A stretch of 27,695 bases of DNA from a virus. The stretch is from the IMG/VR virus record IMGVR_UViG_3300038451_000063, positions 1 through 27,695 of that record, one strand, 5' to 3'. The translations under genes and the position numbers were made by a program. A model generated the notes under the pieces. That model was not told the origin of the DNA. It did not search any database and saw nothing but the letters and a program-made list of their open reading frames with translations. Below are positions 3,254 to 25,567 of this stretch, one piece after another (the first letter of the stretch is position 1; each line of letters opens with the position of its first letter).

Positions 3254-6200
3254 ATGACAGATGAATCTATAGCAGACGTATTTGGTGTACAAGCTACAGT
3301 GACACCTCCGACAGCGAAACCTGCGGTTGCGGGGAAGAAGGCAGCTGCGCCTGTGCAAGACATTGAAGATGTGTTCGGACGGGCGAAGAAATCCCCTTCG
3401 ATGTTGCAAGAGATTATTCCAGCTGTAGACACCGTGCTAGGGTTCCCTGCCTTCATAGCTCAGATGGGTATGACAGGAGTAGCGGATATCGCTGCTCTCG
3501 TCGATGGGTCGGAACATCCGCTTGCTGCGGGCTCCGCCATCATTAATAAGGCAATGCAAACACCTTGGATGAAGTTTATGCAGAAGCCGATACAAACGGC
3601 TATGCAAACGGATACATCTGACACGAAGATGGAAGAGGTGGGGAATTGGATTACAAAGCAGGTTGATGCGGCGGCAGACTATGCTGTGAAGAAGACAGGG
3701 AATCCGGAAGCAGGAGAAGCTGTTCGGCAGGGTGCGAATATCGCTATGGCGAAGGGAGGGGATGCTGTCAGGCATATTGTGATGAAGGGTGCAGATGCCA
3801 TGCGCACGAAACCATCCGGTTCCGCACACACAGATACACCCGCCCCCGAAACTCCCGCTGAAGAGAAAGCACCGGAGCCTACCCACGGTACACTATTTGG
3901 GAAAGATGCTCAGATCAATGCGGATAAGATAGCCCATGATATGATTAAGCGGGGTGCCCCGCTGAGGGATGTACTTGCGGCGAGGAAGCGGAATCCTCTG
4001 GTTGGTGATGCGATTGATAGGATTATGGGAAATCGGCAGATGTTTCGCTCTGGCCCTATGGCGGAAGGGGTTAGCCAAGGGGAGGTGGCGCCACCGGAAT
4101 TTCAGAATGGGCGGGAGAGGGTTAGCCAAGCTCTTCCCGATCCTCATGAGTATGGACAGGTGGTGCGGGAACATGCAGATGTAAGGGTGAGGCAACTTGA
4201 GTTGAAGGATGCGGAGGCGGTTAAAGCGAGGGAAGACGGAAAGGCCGCAATCCCTGATGAGCTGAAAGCGGTCGAGCAGAAGTATCCGAACAAACAGCAA
4301 GGTGGTTATACTGACGTCAAGACCCTCGTGAAGATAGCTGCTGCTGGTGTTGGAGCGGCTGCTGGATACGCTCTTGCCGATAAAGAGGATAAGATTGAAG
4401 GAACCCTTCGCGGAGCATTGGGTGGGCTTATTCTAACCGCTATCAATCCAATGAAGGCAATTGATGTGGCGAAGAAGTTAACTGCCCATGATGATCGGAT
4501 AACTATTGGTGATCTCGGTGACAACCAAGAGGTAGCGATTAAGAGTGCGGAGATTGTCCACCACATTATGAAGAAGAAGATTGACGAACGAGTGCCAGAT
4601 AAAAAGAGGCAAGCTGCCATCACTCATTGGGTGGAGGGGGATCTGACACAGCAACTCGCCCCACACGAACTCGCCGTTGCGAAAGAAGCTAAAGCCTTCT
4701 TCGAGAAACTTGCGCAGGAACAAAATGCCGCAGGGACGTTGAAAGGGTATAGGGAGAACTATGTTACTCACATCTGGGAATGGGGACTGCAAGGAAAGTC
4801 GGCGCTTGAACGGGCGTTCGCAAATAAGGCAGCTGGTGCTGGCATGTCACCTAAAAGTCAGTTCTCTAAAGAGCGAACCATCTCGACGATTGCGGAAGGG
4901 AAGAAGCTTGGGCTGACACCGAAGACGGAAGCGATTGGCGAGATCATGGAGGTCTATGGGAATAGCGCAGCGCGTGCGATGGCGAACAAGAGACTGATTG
5001 ACGGGTTACGTGCAGCGAAGACGCTCGATGGTACGAAACTGTCTCTACCCGCAGATAAAGCTCCCCACACTTATGTGAGTATTAATCACCCACAACTGAA
5101 TGGGCTGAAGGTACATCCAGACATTGCACCAAGTCTCCAATTTCTCTTTGACACGAGAACACCGAGTGCAGCAGGGAGAGCTCTCGATGCTTTCAATACG
5201 GCGTTGAAACGGACTGCAGTATCATTTAGTCTGTTCCATAATAAGGCACTGACGGATGCGTTCATCGGGGGATCAAGTAAACCTTGGAAGGCGTTGTCGA
5301 ACATAGCAGGATTTGTCACCGCGAAAGATGCTTACCTGCGGCAACTGAATGATGAAGGGTTGACACCACTAATTCAAAGCGCACTGAAAGGTGGACTGAC
5401 ATTCACTCTGGATAAGGCGACCTCCGTTGATGAAGATGTAGGTGGAGCGTTCTATGGTGCGCTGAAAGATCTTCAAGGTATGGCCGATCAAATCGTCCCT
5501 GGGATGGGGAAGCCTATTGAAGGGATAGCGAAGATTAACCACGCTGTGGACACAATGACGTGGGCACGGATGCACACAGGAATGAAACTGAATATTTTCG
5601 CGGAGAAGCTAGAGCAGATTAAATTGAATAACGCTCGGGCGCATGAAGCTAATCCCGAGAAAGTTCCCCTGTTTAAAGAAGGGGAAGCGGAGAAGATCGC
5701 GGCCTCTTTCACGAACGATATTTTCGGCGGACTGAACTGGAGACGGATAGCGGAAGCTACGAAGAGAGAATGGGCGAGGGATATTGCATTGGGGGCTCTT
5801 AAACCTTCGAGTCGTCGAATGATGCAGTTGCTTATGTTCGCACCAGACTGGACGCTGTCGACTGTACGGGCTATGACACAAGCGTCCGGGAAAGGTTCGT
5901 CGGTTAAAGGATTGCTGAATGCGCGGACGCTTGCTGATTTGCACAGACAGTATATGATTCGATCAGCGATTTACTATATGACTGTTGGCGATGGAATTAA
6001 TTATGCTATGTCCGGTCACCACATCTGGGATGATAAGCAGAAGGATAAGACTCGCATTGACTTAGGTGATGGGCGAACTATGCAATGGTCTAAACATACG
6101 ATGGACTCTATCCACTGGGTGCTGAACCCAAGCCAACAAATGCTGAACAAATTTGGTGCAATTCCGAAGCAGATGATAGAACAGGCGTTGCATAAAGAAT

Positions 6201-6463
6201 ATCTGTCGGCGCACGGGCAATCACCTGAGATGAAAGGAAGCCGTCTCGGACACCTGTTGAAAGGAATTTCCCCCATCGCGGTGCAACAAAACTTCGATGC
6301 AGGCTCTAGTGCTGGTATCGCGGGTTTCCTCGGCGCACCTATCTACGGGAAAACGCGAGAACAAAAGTTCGATGACAAGATGAAGAAGGAAATGTCTGCT
6401 ATGACACCGGAACAGATTGAAGAGCGTAGGAAGAAACGTATGCAACAACTGGAGGAACAATGA
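3254..6463 (+). CDS. Large internal virion / ejection protein candidate (1069 aa)
   Basis: The largest protein of the late arm. The N-terminus has two 'DVFG' motifs (residues about 8-11 and 38-41), of the kind often seen at the start of large phage ejection or polyvalent proteins. A Gly/Ala-rich hydrophobic segment lies at about residues 358-395 (KIAAAGVGAAAGYALAD...RGALGGLILTAI), compatible with membrane insertion or a flexible core. The C-terminal third is helical and aromatic, with 'DIFGGLNWRR', 'LSTVRAMTQ' and 'LNPSQQMLNKFGAIPKQMIEQ'. The basic tail (EERRKKRMQQLEEQ) ends in a 4-bp ATGA overlap with the next gene. Size, position and composition suit the third ejection protein (T7 gp16 / P22 gp16 position). 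I see no lysozyme or transglycosylase motif. Confidence 0.6.
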   Translation: MTDESIADVFGVQATVTPPTAKPAVAGKKAAAPVQDIEDVFGRAKKSPSMLQEIIPAVDTVLGFPAFIAQMGMTGVADIAALVDGSEHPLAAGSAIINKAMQTPWMKFMQKPIQTAMQTDTSDTKMEEVGNWITKQVDAAADYAVKKTGNPEAGEAVRQGANIAMAKGGDAVRHIVMKGADAMRTKPSGSAHTDTPAPETPAEEKAPEPTHGTLFGKDAQINADKIAHDMIKRGAPLRDVLAARKRNPLVGDAIDRIMGNRQMFRSGPMAEGVSQGEVAPPEFQNGRERVSQALPDPHEYGQVVREHADVRVRQLELKDAEAVKAREDGKAAIPDELKAVEQKYPNKQQGGYTDVKTLVKIAAAGVGAAAGYALADKEDKIEGTLRGALGGLILTAINPMKAIDVAKKLTAHDDRITIGDLGDNQEVAIKSAEIVHHIMKKKIDERVPDKKRQAAITHWVEGDLTQQLAPHELAVAKEAKAFFEKLAQEQNAAGTLKGYRENYVTHIWEWGLQGKSALERAFANKAAGAGMSPKSQFSKERTISTIAEGKKLGLTPKTEAIGEIMEVYGNSAARAMANKRLIDGLRAAKTLDGTKLSLPADKAPHTYVSINHPQLNGLKVHPDIAPSLQFLFDTRTPSAAGRALDAFNTALKRTAVSFSLFHNKALTDAFIGGSSKPWKALSNIAGFVTAKDAYLRQLNDEGLTPLIQSALKGGLTFTLDKATSVDEDVGGAFYGALKDLQGMADQIVPGMGKPIEGIAKINHAVDTMTWARMHTGMKLNIFAEKLEQIKLNNARAHEANPEKVPLFKEGEAEKIAASFTNDIFGGLNWRRIAEATKREWARDIALGALKPSSRRMMQLLMFAPDWTLSTVRAMTQASGKGSSVKGLLNARTLADLHRQYMIRSAIYYMTVGDGINYAMSGHHIWDDKQKDKTRIDLGDGRTMQWSKHTMDSIHWVLNPSQQMLNKFGAIPKQMIEQALHKEYLSAHGQSPEMKGSRLGHLLKGISPIAVQQNFDAGSSAGIAGFLGAPIYGKTREQKFDDKMKKEMSAMTPEQIEERRKKRMQQLEEQ

Positions 6464-13104: not shown

Positions 13105-14310
13105 TTATTTATCATTCTTATGTTCATACAGCAGCCAGAATTCACTCCCCCTCTGTTGAAGGGATATATAACCAGATCGCACAGCCCCAGAAACAATCCC
13201 TTCGAAATCGCGGAAGTCGGGGAAGTAGGCATGAACCATTTTGTAAGCTTCTTGATAAGTGACTGCTCCCCGTTTCTTAACCATCGTGATGAATTGTTCG
13301 GCGTAGAGGGACTGCTCTGTCCGCCCTATACGGGAGAAGACTTTGGACAAGTTCACCTCGGTGGAGTTGATCATAGTCTCCGCGAGGCCGAGGTCGTCCT
13401 TTAAAATGACTAGCTCGTCTCGTTGAGAAGCGGCTATTATCATCGCAAGCTTGTGCATGTGAGTTTGCTTCCGCGCAACATATCCATCTAGACGATCGTC
13501 CTCAATCGCCTTGCTTGACTCTCCCCAGAGCTTCTCATACCAATCCCTCCCCCATTTGCGGGCGTCTGGATTGAGTTTATACTCCCCGCAGAGATTGAGA
13601 GAGATATGCTCAAGATCATGGACGAGACGTTTCTTCCCCTCATCATAATCTCTTGCCACAGCCTCGTCCCCATAAGCGATGAAGTGCTCTTTCTTCTCTG
13701 CGTAGACGAAGACGCATCGAGAAGTGAACCCGCCCCCAACAGTTGCTGAAGGCATATTATCAGCTATCCAATGGGGGGTGGTACATCCAAGCATGTTAAT
13801 CCATGGAGCTTCCACAATGTCGCATCCCGAACCCTTGGTTACTTTCTCCAGCGTCTTCCTCCCATCCCACAGAGTGATGTAGAGGTTAATCATATCCTTA
13901 TCTGCAGGGTTGATGAGGTTACCGAATTCGCTGGCGACAAGTGTGAGTGGTGACATAGGATGCCATTCTTCCCCAAGCTGGAATGATTCACTCGCATCTA
14001 CAAACGCACCAACAAGAGCTGGCCATGTAACTATATCCGGCCCGAATTTAATCCCAGGAACCTGCCGCAACAGTTCCATCGAGAGGTCGGCGGTAGAGGA
14101 CTTCGATATAATCCCTGGAGGTGCGACGAGGATTATGTAGAAGTTCGGATACCACTGATACCGTTTGAAGTCGAGCCAGACCTTTCGACGGAGGCAACCG
14201 GCAATAGCAGAAACACCAGCCCAAAATAACATGAGCTTAGGTGCTTCTGTTTTACCTGTGTTGTCGAGAAATGCTGGAATCCAATCTTTGTAATGTCTAC
14301 TCACATGCAC
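13105..14310 (-). CDS. DUF3987-like P-loop protein (putative primase-helicase component)
   Basis: A 401-residue protein starting at GTG 14310, 14 nt inside the polymerase gene; no in-frame ATG fits. The segment 'YPNFYIILVAPPGIISKSSTADLSMELL' (54-81) is a P-loop-like strand-loop-helix in which Lys70-Ser71 sit as in Walker A, although the usual last Gly is Ser69. 'LTLVASEFGNLI' (122-133) looks like the Walker B strand with Glu128. The C-terminal 90 residues look like a winged-helix domain ('GAVTYQEAYKMVHAYFP...IVSGAVRSGYI'). This layout resembles DUF3987 phage replication proteins. Downstream position after the polymerase supports a role at the fork. The helicase activity is inference. Confidence 0.65.
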   Translation of the reverse strand: MHVSRHYKDWIPAFLDNTGKTEAPKLMLFWAGVSAIAGCLRRKVWLDFKRYQWYPNFYIILVAPPGIISKSSTADLSMELLRQVPGIKFGPDIVTWPALVGAFVDASESFQLGEEWHPMSPLTLVASEFGNLINPADKDMINLYITLWDGRKTLEKVTKGSGCDIVEAPWINMLGCTTPHWIADNMPSATVGGGFTSRCVFVYAEKKEHFIAYGDEAVARDYDEGKKRLVHDLEHISLNLCGEYKLNPDARKWGRDWYEKLWGESSKAIEDDRLDGYVARKQTHMHKLAMIIAASQRDELVILKDDLGLAETMINSTEVNLSKVFSRIGRTEQSLYAEQFITMVKKRGAVTYQEAYKMVHAYFPDFRDFEGIVSGAVRSGYISLQQRGSEFWLLYEHKNDK

Positions 14311-17300
14311 CCCAGCTCTTAGTGGAAATCTTCACGCCCGTTGGAATGATGAGAGGATCTGGATAAGGAATGACAATCTGAGATAGATCGCGAAGCTTCT
14401 CAAGGCAAGCAGCAGTGTTGTTGGAAGGAAATTGCCCCGCCAAGGAATCATGCACTTGTAGTAAGATCTGAATCTCCGGAGCCTGCTCATAGATATTCAC
14501 CCACGCTCTGTTGATGACATTGGCAACTGTGCTCTGGGGTATCCACGCGAGAGCCTCGGGAAGTAGTCCATCCGTGCGGTCGAAATAATATCTTCTATAT
14601 CCGAAAGCATTTTGGACAAAGCGTTTAGTCGTGAGTTGCCGGTAGACACGCTCGTGCCAGGACTTGAGACCGGGGTACTTACCAAAATATATCTTCTGGA
14701 ATCGGTCAGCTTGATGGACAGTGACCCCTGCGGCGATAGCCATAGTTCGAGCTCCGCCCCCGTAGTTAGTGTTTCCCGTGACTCCAATTTTACCCTCCCT
14801 TCGAAATAAAAAATAACCACTAGAAGTTTTCGGGCAATATACTTTTGTAGGTTCCGTCAATCGTCGCGTGACTTGCATAGAAGATAGACGCGCCAGTGGT
14901 CGGTTATTCAGACCGACATGCCAAAGATCTTGCCTTCCATCAGGTCGATTTCGTTTCACACCCACACTTGCGCCTTTACCGCGTAAGTGCGCTATTGTAG
15001 CTACCCATTCTATATGCTGCTGATTAATCCCCATAATTTCCACACGACCTGTTTCTCCGAAAGTTCCGTCCCAATGCGGAAGTTCATCTAACCAAGCGTC
15101 CATCATAGCAGACGTCCATTTAAGTATCCAAGGCCCCGCATATTTAAACTCTGGGGGAATGCCAAGAACTTCCCTACAACCAAAAGTACCATCAGACCAA
15201 GTAGAGAACCTTGCGTTTGGAAATAGTTTTAACAAGCGTTCACGCTTTCGCGTTTTTGCTATATGGAAAACGGTTGCACCTGAAATATCTGTAGTACCGT
15301 CAGCTTGAAAAGCTGCGACACGACGGGCGAACAATAAACTGTCTTCTTCACTAACACCATTCCAAAAATAGCCACCTTTAGGTAATCGTGCGGAGTGCGG
15401 AACATCGCAAGCTCTTTTTGTGTGGTATCCATTTGAATCTACTTTATATAGGACACGATGGTCGAAAGTCATTTCCTGTGACCAAGCCTCCCCTTTATAC
15501 GTGATTAAATCTATAGCTTTATCTCGATGGAAATAGGAGGGAATCTCCCACTTTAAACTGTCATTATCCCAGATCATGATTGGTGTCCCGTCTTTATATT
15601 CTGCTACGTCAACCCAGCCTTCCGGTGTTAGCATTTCATGGCCAGCTGTTACGCACCCATGAATAAAGCTTTTTGCAAGTTGTCTCTCCTTTTTATACGG
15701 TACACGATGATCGAGATAGCGGGGGTGACCTTCCACAAGTTCTGCGAGGTCGGGGAGGGTGCGGTTGGCCAGAGTGTATGCGTTGAGTAAGTGCATATCG
15801 ACACCGAGACGAAGAGCTGCTTTCAACTCTTCTTCCCCACTCTCCCACACAACTACTTGCAAATCTGCGCGATCCAAGTCCATATCAAAAAACGTATAAC
15901 CTGTGTCAGGGATAAATAATTTACGCACGTTCGGCAGTTTGAGCCCATCCTCATCATTTCCCTTTGGAATGTTCTGGAGATTAGTGCCTGACTCAAAAGG
16001 GTTTTTCGAGCTTGAGAATCTGTATGTCTCTGTGCCGCATATATTATACGAACAGCGCATCCTCTTATCATAGTCAAGTCCCGCGAGCACAAACGTGCGT
16101 AGGAACACACCAAGGGAGCGGTATTCTTGTATCGCGCGTATAAGAGGTTTCGTAATTGGCTCTCGCTGCATGATCGTAACCAGTGCATTATCGTCACACG
16201 TGACATGGGCGGGTATTCCTTTCTTTGCTTTAGACATTACAGGTTTAATGGCGAGGTCGCCGTAGAAGAAGTTCTTCATTTGAAGGGGACTGCCCGGGTT
16301 TAAGGGGTGACCGAGGACTTCGAGGAAGTATTTTTCGCGCTTGTACATTTCATCTTGAAGCTCGAAAGCGAAACGTGAACGTTCTTTTTCGTCTATGCGG
16401 ACACCCCGAGTCATGGCTTGTAGGACGGGGTAGAAAAGCTTCTGTTGGAAAGCTTCGACTTCCGCAAGACCGAATCGCTGGATGGTTTCGAGTTCCACAT
16501 TTCCAACTTCATTTGTACGAACGCAATCGACACAGTTGTAAGACCACAATTGATCTTCACCGACATCTTTCTCCCACGTTTTCCCGTCATCCTTCCAATA
16601 GACATAATAGTCACAGTACATCGAGGCTTGGAAATCTAGGCGCTTCGGCAACCCCGCAAACAGTGTATGATGGGAAATCATCGTATCTTGCTTCCCATTC
16701 GGAATGAAATGCCAGTGGCGATAGATATACTGTGCGTCATACAGTCCGTTCTGCCACCGCACTAGACAGTTTTTATCCGTCAGTAGAAGGTAGAGTGTAT
16801 GTATGATTGACGCCTCTTCCTTGACAGACCAATAACCCTCCCTTGACTCCACACACATGAAAGGGATACAGAGGGCGTCTGTCTTACTCCACGAAAGACC
16901 GCAACAAGCGATGTGTCCAGCTCTGGTTTCAAGGTCGAGGTCAACCCAAACCTCTCCGCATCCCACCTTATATAAAAGGTCATCCAGAACTTTTTGGACT
17001 GTGTTGAACGAGGGGCGAAGTAGAAAATTCCATTTAGGGGTATTGCTATAACTTCTTGTAGACACTTCTTTCGCCACCCGCTTGAGGTCGGATAAGACCA
17101 AAGCACGAACATCCCATTGGGCAAGGACTCGTCGAGGGTGTAGTGTCGGAATACATTTATACTCCCATCCTTCAAACAGGTCAGCTTGTTCTTTTCGAGC
17201 CAAGAGTTGACTGCCTCTCCACTTATCAGCACCCCATGCACCAGTGAGAGCCCAGAGGGAAGCATTTCCCAATGCGACAATAATATTTGGCTTGACATGA

Positions 17301-17620
17301 TCTATCTCCTTTATAAGACGGGAGTAACCTTCGAGGATTATAGGGAGGACGTATTTGTCTCGCATAACTTTATGGCGAGAAGTTATATCTTTTTTCTTGA
17401 GAGCAATCCAAGATGCTATATCCCCATTCGGTGGCCGAGTGTTGACGAGGTTGGTGAAGTAGCATTCGGACTGCATGATACCTGCTTCGTGCAAGAGGCG
17501 TGAGAATTCTTTACCGGCCTCCCCTGCGAGTGGTTCGTTATATTGTTCTTCACTATTTCCCCAGCACTCCCCGACAACGAGGATACGGGCGGAGGGGGAA
17601 CCGGAACCTAAGCGTGGCAT
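14297..17620 (-). CDS. UDG-like / 3'-5' exonuclease / family A DNA polymerase with intein
   Basis: A 1107-residue precursor, about 812 after splicing. Residues about 10-185 form a uracil-DNA-glycosylase superfamily domain ('VVGECWGNSEEQYNEPLAGEAG', 'IIVALGNASLWALTG', 'TLHPRRVL'), with no obvious Fe-S cysteine set. Residues about 220-370 form a DEDY proofreading exonuclease (Asp229/Glu231, Asp295, Tyr361-x3-Asp365). Residues 395-1107 form PolA: motif A 'DLDRADLQ' (Asp581), motif B Arg646-x3-Lys650 rejoining Tyr-Gly after splicing, and motif C 'QVHDSL' (Asp1058). The intein occupies residues 656-950. The helical position equal to Klenow Phe762 is His654. This is the phage replicative polymerase. 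The gene overlaps the P-loop gene and starts one base past the zinc-finger gene's stop. Confidence 0.93.
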   Translation of the reverse strand: MPRLGSGSPSARILVVGECWGNSEEQYNEPLAGEAGKEFSRLLHEAGIMQSECYFTNLVNTRPPNGDIASWIALKKKDITSRHKVMRDKYVLPIILEGYSRLIKEIDHVKPNIIVALGNASLWALTGAWGADKWRGSQLLARKEQADLFEGWEYKCIPTLHPRRVLAQWDVRALVLSDLKRVAKEVSTRSYSNTPKWNFLLRPSFNTVQKVLDDLLYKVGCGEVWVDLDLETRAGHIACCGLSWSKTDALCIPFMCVESREGYWSVKEEASIIHTLYLLLTDKNCLVRWQNGLYDAQYIYRHWHFIPNGKQDTMISHHTLFAGLPKRLDFQASMYCDYYVYWKDDGKTWEKDVGEDQLWSYNCVDCVRTNEVGNVELETIQRFGLAEVEAFQQKLFYPVLQAMTRGVRIDEKERSRFAFELQDEMYKREKYFLEVLGHPLNPGSPLQMKNFFYGDLAIKPVMSKAKKGIPAHVTCDDNALVTIMQREPITKPLIRAIQEYRSLGVFLRTFVLAGLDYDKRMRCSYNICGTETYRFSSSKNPFESGTNLQNIPKGNDEDGLKLPNVRKLFIPDTGYTFFDMDLDRADLQVVVWESGEEELKAALRLGVDMHLLNAYTLANRTLPDLAELVEGHPRYLDHRVPYKKERQLAKSFIHGCVTAGHEMLTPEGWVDVAEYKDGTPIMIWDNDSLKWEIPSYFHRDKAIDLITYKGEAWSQEMTFDHRVLYKVDSNGYHTKRACDVPHSARLPKGGYFWNGVSEEDSLLFARRVAAFQADGTTDISGATVFHIAKTRKRERLLKLFPNARFSTWSDGTFGCREVLGIPPEFKYAGPWILKWTSAMMDAWLDELPHWDGTFGETGRVEIMGINQQHIEWVATIAHLRGKGASVGVKRNRPDGRQDLWHVGLNNRPLARLSSMQVTRRLTEPTKVYCPKTSSGYFLFRREGKIGVTGNTNYGGGARTMAIAAGVTVHQADRFQKIYFGKYPGLKSWHERVYRQLTTKRFVQNAFGYRRYYFDRTDGLLPEALAWIPQSTVANVINRAWVNIYEQAPEIQILLQVHDSLAGQFPSNNTAACLEKLRDLSQIVIPYPDPLIIPTGVKISTKSWGACE
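14771..15655 (-). mobile_element. LAGLIDADG-type intein in PolA motif B (295 aa)
   Basis: The extein 'RQLAKSFIHG' is interrupted exactly before 'TNYGGGARTM'. The insert starts with Cys ('CVTAGHEMLTPEGWVDV', block A), has the block B TxxH motif ('MTFDHRVL', Thr718-His721), and ends 'YFLFRREGKIGVTGN' (block F) with C-terminal Asn950 and extein +1 Thr. The penultimate residue is Gly instead of the common His, a known tolerated variant. Between the splicing blocks lie 'FARRVAAFQADG' (764-775) with 'K-x-RKRERLLKLF', and 'ELPHWDG' (846-852), matching the paired degenerate LAGLIDADG motifs of homing endonucleases. Removing it restores a continuous O-helix. Splicing competence is inferred. Confidence 0.95.
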
Positions 17621-17621
17621 A

Positions 17622-17939
17622 TTAATCTTCCTGTGTGTAATGAGCCATTTGTACTTGTAAGGCAGATAGTTGCTTGCGAAGTAAAAACACTTCTGCTAAT
17701 AAAGTATCTTTATCCATTTTTAATGTGGCGTTATGGGTACGGAGGTTTTCTCTATCAGTTTCTGCTTTTTCCCTATGATAGCGGTTACGGCAAGCGACAG
17801 AACAAAAACCTTGCCACATTCTGATAGGGCTATAATTATTGCCGCAAGAAGGGCAAATCCGAAGAGCTCCATCACCTATAGCTTTATCAAACCTTCTTTT
17901 CATTTCCTCTTGCGTCATTTCGTTTAGAATTACCGGCAT
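17622..17939 (-). CDS. Small zinc-finger / coiled-coil protein upstream of polymerase
   Basis: A 105-residue protein with a good AAGGAG site before ATG 17939. It has a treble-clef-like zinc site: C29-PS-C32 and F-C46-SVA-C50-RNRYH, followed by a long charged helix (about 55-100) that could be a coiled coil. The N-terminus is a short helix ('EMTQEEMKRRFDKAI'). This resembles small phage proteins with an 'yCSxxCR' finger that are often DNA-binding or RNA-polymerase-binding. It is the first gene after the replication promoter and its leader contains the phased repeat array, so an autoregulator is a reasonable hypothesis, not shown. It is followed by the polymerase with a one-base gap. Confidence 0.7.
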   Translation of the reverse strand: MPVILNEMTQEEMKRRFDKAIGDGALRICPSCGNNYSPIRMWQGFCSVACRNRYHREKAETDRENLRTHNATLKMDKDTLLAEVFLLRKQLSALQVQMAHYTQED

Positions 17940-17950
17940 ACCATCTCCTT

Positions 17951-18032
17951 ATGGGTTATGAATGAATAGTAATGCATATTAAATGCGTTCTAATGCATTT
18001 ACAATGCATTTTAATTATCCGACATAACCCAT
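17951..18032. promoter_or_regulatory. 10-bp inverted repeat bracketing the replication promoter leader
   Basis: ATGGGTTATG (17951-17960) and CATAACCCAT (18023-18032) are perfect reverse complements 62 bp apart. One arm lies inside the spacer of the - strand promoter; the other lies just upstream of the AAGGAG ribosome site of the zinc-finger gene. The interval between them holds the five phased AATG-led repeats. This is the geometry of paired operators or of an origin-binding site. Confidence 0.75.
17961..18010. repeat. Five helically phased AATGCAT-like repeats
   Basis: Units start at 17961 (AATGAATA), 17971 (AATGCATA), 17982 (AATGCGTT), 17992 (AATGCATT) and 18003 (AATGCATT). Intervals are 10, 11, 10 and 11 bp, averaging one B-DNA turn, so all sit on the same helix face. 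The stretch 17961-18019 is about 24% G+C. Three units contain the palindrome ATGCAT. It follows the predicted transcription start of the replication operon and could be an operator array, an iteron-type origin, or both. Confidence 0.85.
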
Positions 18033-18042
18033 GAAAAGTCAA
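18014..18042 (-). promoter_or_regulatory. Sigma70-like promoter of the replication operon
   Basis: On the - strand, TTGACT (18042-18037) and GATAAT (18019-18014) are separated by 17 bp, each one base from consensus. Transcription would start near 18007 and run into the zinc-finger, polymerase and P-loop genes. The spacer contains one arm of the 10-bp inverted repeat, so a protein bound there would block RNA polymerase. Confidence 0.75.
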
Positions 18043-18087: not shown

Positions 18088-18402
18088 TTATTCCGGCCCG
18101 ACTGGGAAGGTTCGTTCATCAGTTACTCCTATTTTGTAGTTTATTATTTCGTGTTTGGCTAATTCAAGACGGCCTACAAGTTTCTCAATAGAACATTCCG
18201 TGTGAAGTAGCTTGTAGAAAGGCTCTTTCGGGTAGAGGAGGAGTATTACACATTCAGTTGATTCACTATCAATCGCACTATCGAGAATCTCCATTACATC
18301 TTCATTACCGGAGCGAAAAGATGCGTCCATTACTTTGCGATCGTCAGTGTCTTTGAAGCAAGCAGGACATTGGCAACCAGAACCTTCTGGGTGATTATCC
18401 AT
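18088..18402 (-). CDS. Small Cys-containing phage protein (hypothetical)
   Basis: I start at ATG 18402 (104 residues), which overlaps the methyltransferase stop by 8 nt with GGAG upstream; the longer frame runs inside the methyltransferase gene and is not credible. The N-terminus carries 'CQCPACF' (residues 10-16), a small metal-binding-like cluster. The middle is acidic. The rest has a beta strand 'TECVILLLYPKE' and a helix 'SIEKLVGRLELAKHEIIN'. I do not recognise a function. It lies between the ParB-methyltransferase gene and the replication promoter, so it closes the exonuclease-methyltransferase transcription unit. Confidence 0.65.
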   Translation of the reverse strand: MDNHPEGSGCQCPACFKDTDDRKVMDASFRSGNEDVMEILDSAIDSESTECVILLLYPKEPFYKLLHTECSIEKLVGRLELAKHEIINYKIGVTDERTFPVGPE

Positions 18403-19747
18403 GGAGGGCTCCGAGACGTTTAGCTGCGAGTCCATAAAAGCTGTCGTCAAGTTCAACTCCTGTCGCATAGCATTGCAAGCTGTTTGCAGCCTCGAAAATT
18501 GTTCCGCTTCCGCAAAAGGGGTCAAGCACTCGATCACCCGGTCTTGCACTTCTTGCCAAGAGTTCTGTAAAGAGAGCAACTGGTTTTTGAGCGTTATGTC
18601 CGACATTTTTATCTACTCCATATTCAAGTACATCATTACCCATGCGATTAGTTTCGCGGTTACCTTTCATTGCATAGAGAATGGTCTCGTAAGTGCGGTG
18701 AGGGCCTTTATTCGGCCACGGAGCGCGGAAACCGGAAGGTTTCGACCAGATGAAGGGGGTGCGGAAAACTTTCCAACCAGCATCTTCGAGTTCCTGCTTG
18801 ATGTAGTGGAACATATCGAAATCGCAGAAGAGATACATATGGGCATCGGGGGCAGCGACACGGTAGGAGAGTCGAGGGAATTCCTTCATCAGGTCGCGGA
18901 GCGTGTCAGGGGAGTCCGAATACTCGTGGGCTCCGGCAGTTCTTCCGCCAGAATCTCCGAATTCGTCAGCGCCCATTCCGTAGGGAGGGTCGGTGAGGAT
19001 AACTGCATACTGTCCTTCATTGGTGGTATCTCTACCCATCCACTCAATACAATCGGCATTGTGAAGTTGGTGGAGGCTGGAAGAGAAAGAATGGCCCACT
19101 TCCTTCGCGAGTTCCGCATGTTTAGCCTTTTGCTCTTTCTTCTTGAGAATGTCGAAAGCTTCTTTAGATGTTTTTGCCTTCATGACATCAGGGTCGTCAA
19201 GGTGGTTGGCGAGGATAGCTTCGCGGCGAACACGAGCTGCTGGGCCGTCATACTGACCGTTGAGTTGGGCTTTCGTCGCGGTAACTTCAGCGGCGAGTTG
19301 GACGACTGTAGGGACAGGGCGACCGAGACGCTCGGCTTGAATCTTGCGAAGTTCCCAGAGGGAATTTGTCGCCGCCGCACGTTCTTGCCATGTGAGGTCT
19401 ACTCGGAGGATGTTTTCTTCGAGTTCCGCCTCCATTCGAGCCAAAGTGGAAATGTCTCCAACATCCACGCAAGGAGCCAAGCCGTCACTAACACTTTGCC
19501 CGAGGTACTTAAGGGTTCCACCCAGACTGTATATATCACGTATAGCACGCAAGCGACGTTCGCCAGATATAAGATAGTAACTCTCATTTTTTCCACTCCC
19601 TTCTGTTCGGATTACGAGGGCGTTCTGAAGTCCGACTTCCCCAAATTGGAGAGACGAGACGAGTTCCTGATTCTTAGCTTCGTCAAATACTTTTCTCTGC
19701 CTATCGGGGGTGACAAGGATTTTGTCTATCTGTATAAATTTAATCAT
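18395..19747 (-). CDS. ParB-like domain fused to DNA methyltransferase (beta class)
   Basis: A 450-residue protein. Residues 1-115 form a ParB/Srx-type domain with 'LISGERRLRAIRDI' (59-72). Residues about 120-220 are helical. Residues 225-450 form a methyltransferase with catalytic motif IV 'TDPPYGMG' (252-259), 'NVGHNAQKPVALFTELL' (381-397) and AdoMet-binding motif I 'VLDPFCGSGTI' (407-417). Motif IV before motif I is the beta-class order, and DPPY suggests N6-adenine (or N4-cytosine) modification. Such fusions are common in phages and may protect phage DNA from restriction or mark it for regulation. The target is unknown. It overlaps the exonuclease gene by 8 nt. Confidence 0.9.
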   Translation of the reverse strand: MIKFIQIDKILVTPDRQRKVFDEAKNQELVSSLQFGEVGLQNALVIRTEGSGKNESYYLISGERRLRAIRDIYSLGGTLKYLGQSVSDGLAPCVDVGDISTLARMEAELEENILRVDLTWQERAAATNSLWELRKIQAERLGRPVPTVVQLAAEVTATKAQLNGQYDGPAARVRREAILANHLDDPDVMKAKTSKEAFDILKKKEQKAKHAELAKEVGHSFSSSLHQLHNADCIEWMGRDTTNEGQYAVILTDPPYGMGADEFGDSGGRTAGAHEYSDSPDTLRDLMKEFPRLSYRVAAPDAHMYLFCDFDMFHYIKQELEDAGWKVFRTPFIWSKPSGFRAPWPNKGPHRTYETILYAMKGNRETNRMGNDVLEYGVDKNVGHNAQKPVALFTELLARSARPGDRVLDPFCGSGTIFEAANSLQCYATGVELDDSFYGLAAKRLGALHG

Positions 19748-23840: not shown

Positions 23841-24037
23841 GGATGAATCTCCTTTATCTCTATTAAGTTACCCATTGCTTGCTGTTCTTCCAACCACCGT
23901 TCGGCATCGGCTTGGTCAGGGCGGCCTACCTGACGTGTGAAGGCTTTTAAAGCAGCAATTTCAGGGCTGTCCCCCCAAGCCAAGTTGAGCTTAAGCTCGG
24001 GTTGAGGGGTACTGAGGGCACAAGCGAATTGCCGCAT
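23837..24037 (-). CDS. Small phage protein (66 aa, hypothetical)
   Basis: ATG 24037 overlaps the TAA of the preceding repeat-protein gene (TAATG), so translation is coupled to it. The middle 'SPEIAALKAFTRQVGRPDQADAERWLEEQQAMG' is helical with an Asp/Glu-rich face. It ends in 'NLIEIKEIHP'. I recognise no family. The precise overlaps with both neighbours support expression. Confidence 0.6.
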   Translation of the reverse strand: MRQFACALSTPQPELKLNLAWGDSPEIAALKAFTRQVGRPDQADAERWLEEQQAMGNLIEIKEIHP

Positions 24038-24273
24038 TAGCCGTTACCGCTGCCGTTACCGATGCCGCAGCCGCTGCCGCTGCCGCTGCCGCTGCCGTTG
24101 CCGTTGCCGCTGCCGTAGCCGCAGCCGCTGCTGTAGCCGCTGCCGTAGCCGCTGTCGTAGCCGGTGCCGTTGCCGTTGCCGCTGCCGCTGTCGTAGCCGT
24201 AGCCGCTGCCGTTGCCGTTGCCGTAGCAGCTGTCGTAGCCGTAGCCGCTGCCGTTGCCTTCTATACTTTCCAT
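24037..24273 (-). CDS. Gly/Tyr/Ser repeat protein, copy 2 (78 aa)
   Basis: ATG 24273 follows TAAGGAG by 7 nt. After MESIEG, the protein is an almost strict alternation of Gly with Ser, Tyr, Asn, Asp, Cys or Thr (GNGSGYGYDS-type), ending SGNG. Nearly every codon is GGC followed by TAC, AGC, AAC, GAC or TGC, so the DNA is a degenerate hexamer repeat. The frame is chosen because it alone has a placed ribosome site, shares MESIEG with copy 1, and gives TAATG coupling downstream. The composition resembles low-complexity [G/S]Y[G/S] regions that self-associate in eukaryotic proteins; such behaviour here is untested. Confidence 0.75.
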   Translation of the reverse strand: MESIEGNGSGYGYDSCYGNGNGSGYGYDSGSGNGNGTGYDSGYGSGYSSGCGYGSGNGNGSGSGSGSGCGIGNGSGNG

Positions 24274-24286
24274 TGCTTTCTCCTTA

Positions 24287-24541
24287 TTAGCCGTTACCGC
24301 TGCTGATGCCGCAGCCGCTGCCATCGCCGTAGCCATCGCCGTAGCCATCGCCGTAGCCGTAGCCGTAGCCGCTGCCGCTGCCGCTGCCGCTGTCGTAGCC
24401 GTAGCCGTAGCGGCTGCCGCTGCCGTAGCCGTTGCCGCTGCCGTAGCCAGCGCCGCTGCTGATGCCGCTGCCGTAGCCATCGCCGTAGCCAGCGCCAGCG
24501 CCGCTGCCGCTGCCGTAGCCGCAGCCTTCTATACTTTCCAT
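24287..24541 (-). CDS. Gly/Tyr/Ser repeat protein, copy 1 (84 aa)
   Basis: ATG 24541 lies inside the last codons of the DUF6948-like gene (13-nt overlap). It starts MESIEG and continues as Gly alternating with Tyr, Ser, Asp, Cys, Ala or Arg, and ends SSGNG. It is a clear tandem paralogue of the next gene, with an identical first 18 nt and near-identical last codons. There is no hydrophobic core, signal or motif, so it is probably disordered. In phage genomes I have seen Gly-Tyr repeat proteins beside DUF6948-type genes, function unknown. The tyrosines could mediate stacking or condensate formation. Confidence 0.75.
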   Translation of the reverse strand: MESIEGCGYGSGSGAGAGYGDGYGSGISSGAGYGSGNGYGSGSRYGYGYDSGSGSGSGYGYGYGDGYGDGYGDGSGCGISSGNG

Positions 24542-25495: not shown

Positions 25496-25513
25496 TGAAA
25501 CGGGTTTGTTCCA
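25496..25513. promoter_or_regulatory. Operator-like quasi-palindrome at the 25.5-kb promoter
   Basis: On the - strand it reads TGGAAC-AAACCC-GTTTCA, a 6-6-6 dyad with one mismatch (or a G:U pair if RNA). It starts 8 bp downstream of the -10 box, covering about +1 to +18, followed by TACACC. The same element is at the same place in the 27-kb promoter. Confidence 0.75.
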
Positions 25514-25548: not shown

Positions 25549-25567
25549 CAAAGAAATTAAACGCATG

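Follow-up and report, generated by a model that had tools for sequence, protein, structure and literature searches.

The Ogr/Delta proteins of phages P2 and P4 are very small zinc-finger activators that act on promoters at palindromic sites, located near position -55. Zinc-ribbon patterns are also present in lambda NinG/Rap and in HNH-associated proteins. In phage T4, I-TevI represses its own expression through an operator that lies over its promoter, and a hairpin is formed in the RNA initiated upstream (PMC2988022). The kind of control that we propose below is already known. No description of the zinc-ribbon family presented here, of its operator or of its cassette-like placement was found in the literature searched, most subscription journals lying outside its coverage.

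We analysed a stretch of viral DNA of 27,695 nucleotides (the window), in which the zf gene (17622..17939, minus strand) encodes a 105-aa protein composed of a zinc ribbon and a long helix, proposed here to be an autoregulator. The locus resembles those of T4 I-TevI and related homing endonucleases in combining a zinc-bearing phage DNA-binding protein, an operator overlapping the promoter and a hairpin restricted to read-through RNA, with the binding by zf, the promoter and the hairpin being predicted. It differs from I-TevI in that the window protein carries no nuclease domain, no intron is present, and the putative operator consists of palindromic octamers in phase instead of a copy of the homing site. 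With lambda NinG/Rap and the HNH-associated zinc ribbons, zf has in common the zinc-ribbon pattern, detected as weak profile matches, but the window protein lacks their catalytic part. In contrast with the Ogr/Delta sites, the octamers associated with zf genes are found mostly inside the core promoter.

The zf gene is followed in the same direction by polA (14297..17620, minus strand), which encodes a family A DNA polymerase and starts 1 nt past the zf stop codon, and by a primase-like gene (DUF3987; 13105..14310, minus strand). At its N-terminus, the window PolA has a UDG-superfamily domain. It also contains an intein-like insert, around residues 660-940, which relatives do not have; in the relatives L008, L009, L011 and L012, PolA shows a break near residue 557 that may mark a further site of insertion. 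A small ORF (18088-18606, minus strand) lies between zf and the ParB-methyltransferase gene, whose end it overlaps; it showed no family match and no relative in the fetched loci. Elsewhere in the window, a 1069-aa late-region protein (3254-6463, plus strand) had no match in 50,697 phage records, and a GC-rich repetitive stretch at 24037-24480 contains low-complexity, Ala/Gly-rich overlapping reading frames.

A sigma-70-like promoter for zf and polA was predicted on the minus strand, with a -35 hexamer TTGACT (18037..18042), a 17-bp spacer, a -10 hexamer GATAAT (18014..18019) and a transcription start near 18007. It matches the consensus at 10 of 12 positions; as a class, promoter-like matches in the region are not above chance (16 vs 17.0 in shuffles). 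The ribosome site AAGGAG (17945..17950, minus strand) precedes the zf start codon, ATG at 17939. The array spans the predicted start and extends downstream of it. It consists of AATGCATT at 18003..18010, which overlaps the predicted transcription start, AATGCATT again at 17992..17999, AATGCGTT at 17982..17989 (each 8/8 to AAYGCRTT) and AATGCATA at 17971..17978 (7/8), none assigned to a strand, with steps of 11, 10 and 11 between them; relative to the predicted start, the octamers are placed at -3/+8/+18/+29. A preliminary description of this DNA had listed five octamers with 10/11 steps in DNA of about 24% G+C. Its positions and steps were exact, and the G+C content was 23.7% between 17961 and 18019 (29% between 17951 and 18042), but we count four good octamers and one poor one because the in-phase copy at 17961..17968 (AATGAATA, no strand assigned) is degenerate, lacking the GC core. 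An octamer chain of equal score was obtained in none of 100 dinucleotide shuffles of the whole window and in none of 20,000 shuffles of the local 150 bp. A search of viral contigs for the exact four-copy pattern gave no match.

Alignments of PolA and the methyltransferase added about 150 loci to the comparison. The methyltransferase-polA junction in about 155 relatives is normally devoid of both zf and the array, the interval in the 155 loci being often shorter than 100 bp or occupied by other genes. Among 178 loci (1.68 Mb), 10/11-bp octamer chains were found only once, at 1083-1114 of L149, and this chain directly precedes a zf homologue (48% identity). The array is thus no constant feature of the replication locus. 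The expectation that relatives would keep the phasing failed at the methyltransferase-polA junction and held upstream of several zf homologues elsewhere. The preliminary description had also considered that the array might be the phage replication origin, with the octamers as iterons, and AT-rich phased repeats adjoining polA and primase genes would suit such a function. We regard an origin as very improbable, given that no phased array was present at the junction in 155 relatives and that the array follows zf to other locations. Furthermore, the GC skew, suggested earlier as a check for an origin, showed no consistent change and gave no usable signal.

The association of the octamers with zf was then evident from the regions upstream of its homologues. 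In L175, L176 and L096, the words ACGCAT, ACGCGT or ATGCAT recur at 10-11 bp steps just upstream of zf, which is placed before a primase gene in L175 and L176 and before a methyltransferase gene in L096 and L149. The genes behind zf are parB-methyltransferase in L180, L193 and L195, primase in L185 and L190, and polA in the window. Despite this differing gene context, AAYGCRTT octamers are found just upstream of the zf homologues, often as pairs or triples at 9, 10 or 11 bp. The AAYGCRTT motif was derived from the discovery loci and then used as a prediction for further zf loci, which were found by protein sequence alone through a profile scan and a scan of bacterial genome contigs. Taking 29 loci including the window, the 220 bp upstream of zf contained 43 sites in 6,217 bp vs 103 in 151,167 bp elsewhere in these loci, an enrichment of about tenfold (Poisson p 2e-28). 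All adjacent site pairs within 40 bp were 9, 10 or 11 bp apart (4, 4 and 8 cases, respectively), vs 1 background pair.

The prediction was evaluated in a hold-out set of 29 zf loci from which the discovery loci had been removed. These loci contained 28-29 sites, in comparison with 4.4 expected from background, and dinucleotide shuffles gave a mean of 5.4 (maximum 13 in 2,000 shuffles) vs the 28 observed. Pairs spaced at 9-11 bp numbered 7-8 vs a shuffle mean of 0.017 (maximum 1), with no other close spacing. No 7/8 site was present in 12 of the 29 hold-out loci, including the WQ-type loci L184, L192, L205 and L340. In addition, unbiased word counts upstream of zf ranked AATGCAT, AATGCGT, AACGCGT and AACGCAT at the top. 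The upstream region of L342 reads AATGCATG-GC-AACGCATT, a step of 10; among later loci, L332 shows a step of 9 and L334 a step of 10, and L340 has no sites. These data support, at the level of sequence comparison, the earlier view of a cooperative-type regulatory site at the operon promoter, in the form of octamers linked to zf and restricted in their spacing.

Seen in the window alone, the array has an attractive second interpretation, as three 18-bp ARG boxes, 3 bp apart, bound by the host ArgR. Tandem ARG boxes are the canonical design of ArgR operators (PMC6640053), and the array, whose half-sites lie on one face with 10/11-bp alternation as in those operators, contains the window's best tandem ARG-box-like pair, with the canonical 21-bp period and a score of 26/32, reached in 0 of 300 whole-window shuffles and in a fraction of 0.0004 of local shuffles. 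This hypothesis was dropped once the homologues were compared, and we hold binding by ArgR to be highly unlikely. The homologous sites are AACGCATT or AACGCGTT, the half-sites TGAAT/ATTCA not being kept, and the AAYGCRTT sites of the homologues do not constitute ARG boxes because they are spaced at steps of 9, 10 or 11 bp and often comprise two octamers only. In phage P1, ArgR failed to bind a sequence that matches the ARG box at 16 of 18 positions (PMC2409434).

Because the motif follows the zf homologues rather than the locus, the octamers are likely to be bound by the zf protein, a possibility raised in the preliminary description for the zinc-finger protein and supported by the comparison of homologous upstream regions. 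A zf subfamily without the tryptophan (DQ/GQ type: L182, L204 and L341) carries TACGCR/GTACGCGTAC upstream instead of AAYGCRTT; these three loci hint that the operator may shift along with the protein from one subfamily to another. It is possible, though unlikely, that another host or phage regulator binds AAYGCRTT and controls zf, with the zf protein doing a different job, because the evidence for zf is co-occurrence, which is not binding, and because similar sites exist apart from the gene. In the 4.3-kb contig L239, which carries no zf gene, four AAYGCRTT-like octamers in 10-11 bp phase (L239:1638-1676) lie upstream of a gene on the minus strand that is apparently a structural phage gene. 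In the reciprocal direction, a scan for AANGCATTNNNAANGCATT showed no zf in the vicinity of any of the 80 loci that were examined among the matches listed. On the other hand, zf is the only gene seen to be common to all these loci, and the operator seems to shift with the zf subfamily. A single conserved host factor is unlikely, given the divergence of the phages and the different phyla to which the few bacterial loci belong.

The position of the octamers relative to predicted promoters was also examined. Where the predicted promoter scored fairly well, the octamers of many loci fall between -31 and +10 of the predicted start, often in the -35/-10 spacer of the predicted zf promoter: -20/-9 in L180, -20/-9/+2 in L190, -28/-19 in L196 and L197, and -25 in L206. 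L342, with octamers at -51/-41, is an exception. A position in the core promoter is the place of a repressor operator, and overlap of the operator with its own promoter, as in I-TevI, was found here on predicted promoters. Two clusters of operators are present upstream of zf in L180, L185, L190 and L195, the closest octamers listed being about 46-67 bp apart; the two clusters might act together.

The zf family has the pattern C-x2-C (or C-x4-C) ... W-Q-x-F-C-x3-C-R. The model of the window protein (pLDDT 91.6) shows a zinc ribbon followed by a helix at residues 48-104, which in the model is probably a coiled coil; this element is absent in some members, that of L206 being too short for one. 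Weak profile matches were obtained to NinG and HNH-associated ribbons (PF05766, phrog_1271 and phrog_15471). The match to NinG/Rap (PF05766, 21.6 bits) is below the Pfam curated cut-off of 25.4 and involves only the ribbon part. Fold comparison gave weak similarities only (YacG, E 0.45; MYND-type, Z 5.0) and no match pointing to a sequence-specific bacterial regulator family, and the Ogr/Delta Pfam profile did not match any of 18 zf members at E 0.01. DNA-level and protein searches of phage records returned no zf relative, and few members were recovered when the zf profile was run against 100 relative records and about 690 bacterial genomes. In L196 the zf ribbon forms the N-terminal part of an HNH-like protein, and in L201 an HNH-like gene directly follows zf, HNH being read in both cases from residues, without a profile match; this joining or adjacency agrees with a DNA-binding module that can occur either by itself or together with a nuclease. 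None of the other small proteins of the window, considered as DNA-binding candidates, had an informative Pfam match.

The array in the window is flanked by inverted arms, ATGGGTTATG (18023..18032, minus strand) within the promoter spacer and CATAACCCAT (17951..17960, minus strand) adjoining the ribosome site. The arms had been described before as exact reverse complements placed in this way around the array and the TTGACT-17-GATAAT promoter, and all of this was found to be correct. Of 5,000 local shuffles, 32 gave a similarly distant, exact inverted pair of 10 bp; the arms are thus unusual, but the pair had been chosen post hoc. RNA folding in the window predicted an 82-nt hairpin (-37.3 kcal/mol, z -4.8) in which the ribosome site is paired with the CUUUU preceding the 5' arm. 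As this arm lies upstream of the local transcript start and is transcribed only from upstream, the hairpin can form in read-through RNA only. The ribosome site is predicted to be mostly paired in the read-through RNA, with an opening cost of 2.8-3.3 kcal/mol vs 0.6-1.7 kcal/mol in RNA started near 18004-18010. The hairpin is predicted by folding in the window, and the arms were not seen in the homologous zf loci. The control by looping that had been suggested earlier is not needed and found no support as a loop between the arms, which are more readily accounted for as the two sides of a hairpin in RNA. This fold, and the same layout in T4 I-TevI (PMC2988022), would also agree with an element acting mainly as RNA, either as a read-through hairpin hiding the zf ribosome site or as a processing site. 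We consider a mainly RNA element improbable, as four like octamers in helical phase are unneeded for a hairpin and the homologues keep the octamers and their spacing; a hairpin may coexist with an operator.

Altogether, these data make it likely, on sequence evidence, that the AAYGCRTT array is the operator of zf and that the zf protein autoregulates its own promoter and the replication genes behind it, probably by repression. A zf dimer, held by the coiled coil, would bind each palindromic octamer, and the 9-11 bp spacing would bring adjacent dimers to almost the same side of the helix, so that binding could be cooperative. Occupancy of the octamers would block RNA polymerase at the zf promoter, since they cover the promoter start region. 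In this way zf would limit the synthesis of itself, of polA and of the primase-like gene, the control extending to the replication genes because zf precedes them with overlapping or near-overlapping ends. In RNA from upstream promoters, the hairpin would hide the ribosome site, and zf would be made mainly from its own promoter.

Two further strong promoter-like sites of the window, at 25548-25460 and 27027-26950 (minus strand), share TGGAACANACCCGTTYCATACACC just past the predicted start. Its place is taken by CGGACGRAC-like repeats at the corresponding two promoters of the 88%-related L015, so that a second type of operator seems to have changed at both promoters jointly. Two zf-operator-like words, CATGCGTT at 25512 and AACGCATG at 25560, lie 48 bp apart around the 25.5-kb promoter. 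An action of zf on the 25.5- and 27.0-kb promoters, considered because of AACGCATG near the 25.5-kb start, was rejected, as the sites are not kept in the close relative L015.

In a wider sense, we see about an even chance that these loci represent an undescribed family of phage regulators, formed by small zinc-ribbon proteins of the WQxFC type, some with a coiled coil and some joined to HNH-like proteins. Each would come with its own promoter and AAYGCRTT operator, as a cassette inserted at differing gene boundaries of related replication operons (before polA, primase or methyltransferase) and controlling the genes behind it, with subfamilies using shifted operators (TACGCR). If this is true, a function and a DNA target would be assigned to tiny phage zinc proteins whose only matches at present are to profiles of unknown function or of HNH/NinG fragments. 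The zinc ribbon would join the DNA-binding folds used in phage autoregulation, with an operator readable from sequence, and a ribbon reading an 8-bp palindrome would offer a compact DNA-binding module for study. For these phages, zf would constitute a portable, self-controlled switch that has been set at several positions within a single type of replication operon.
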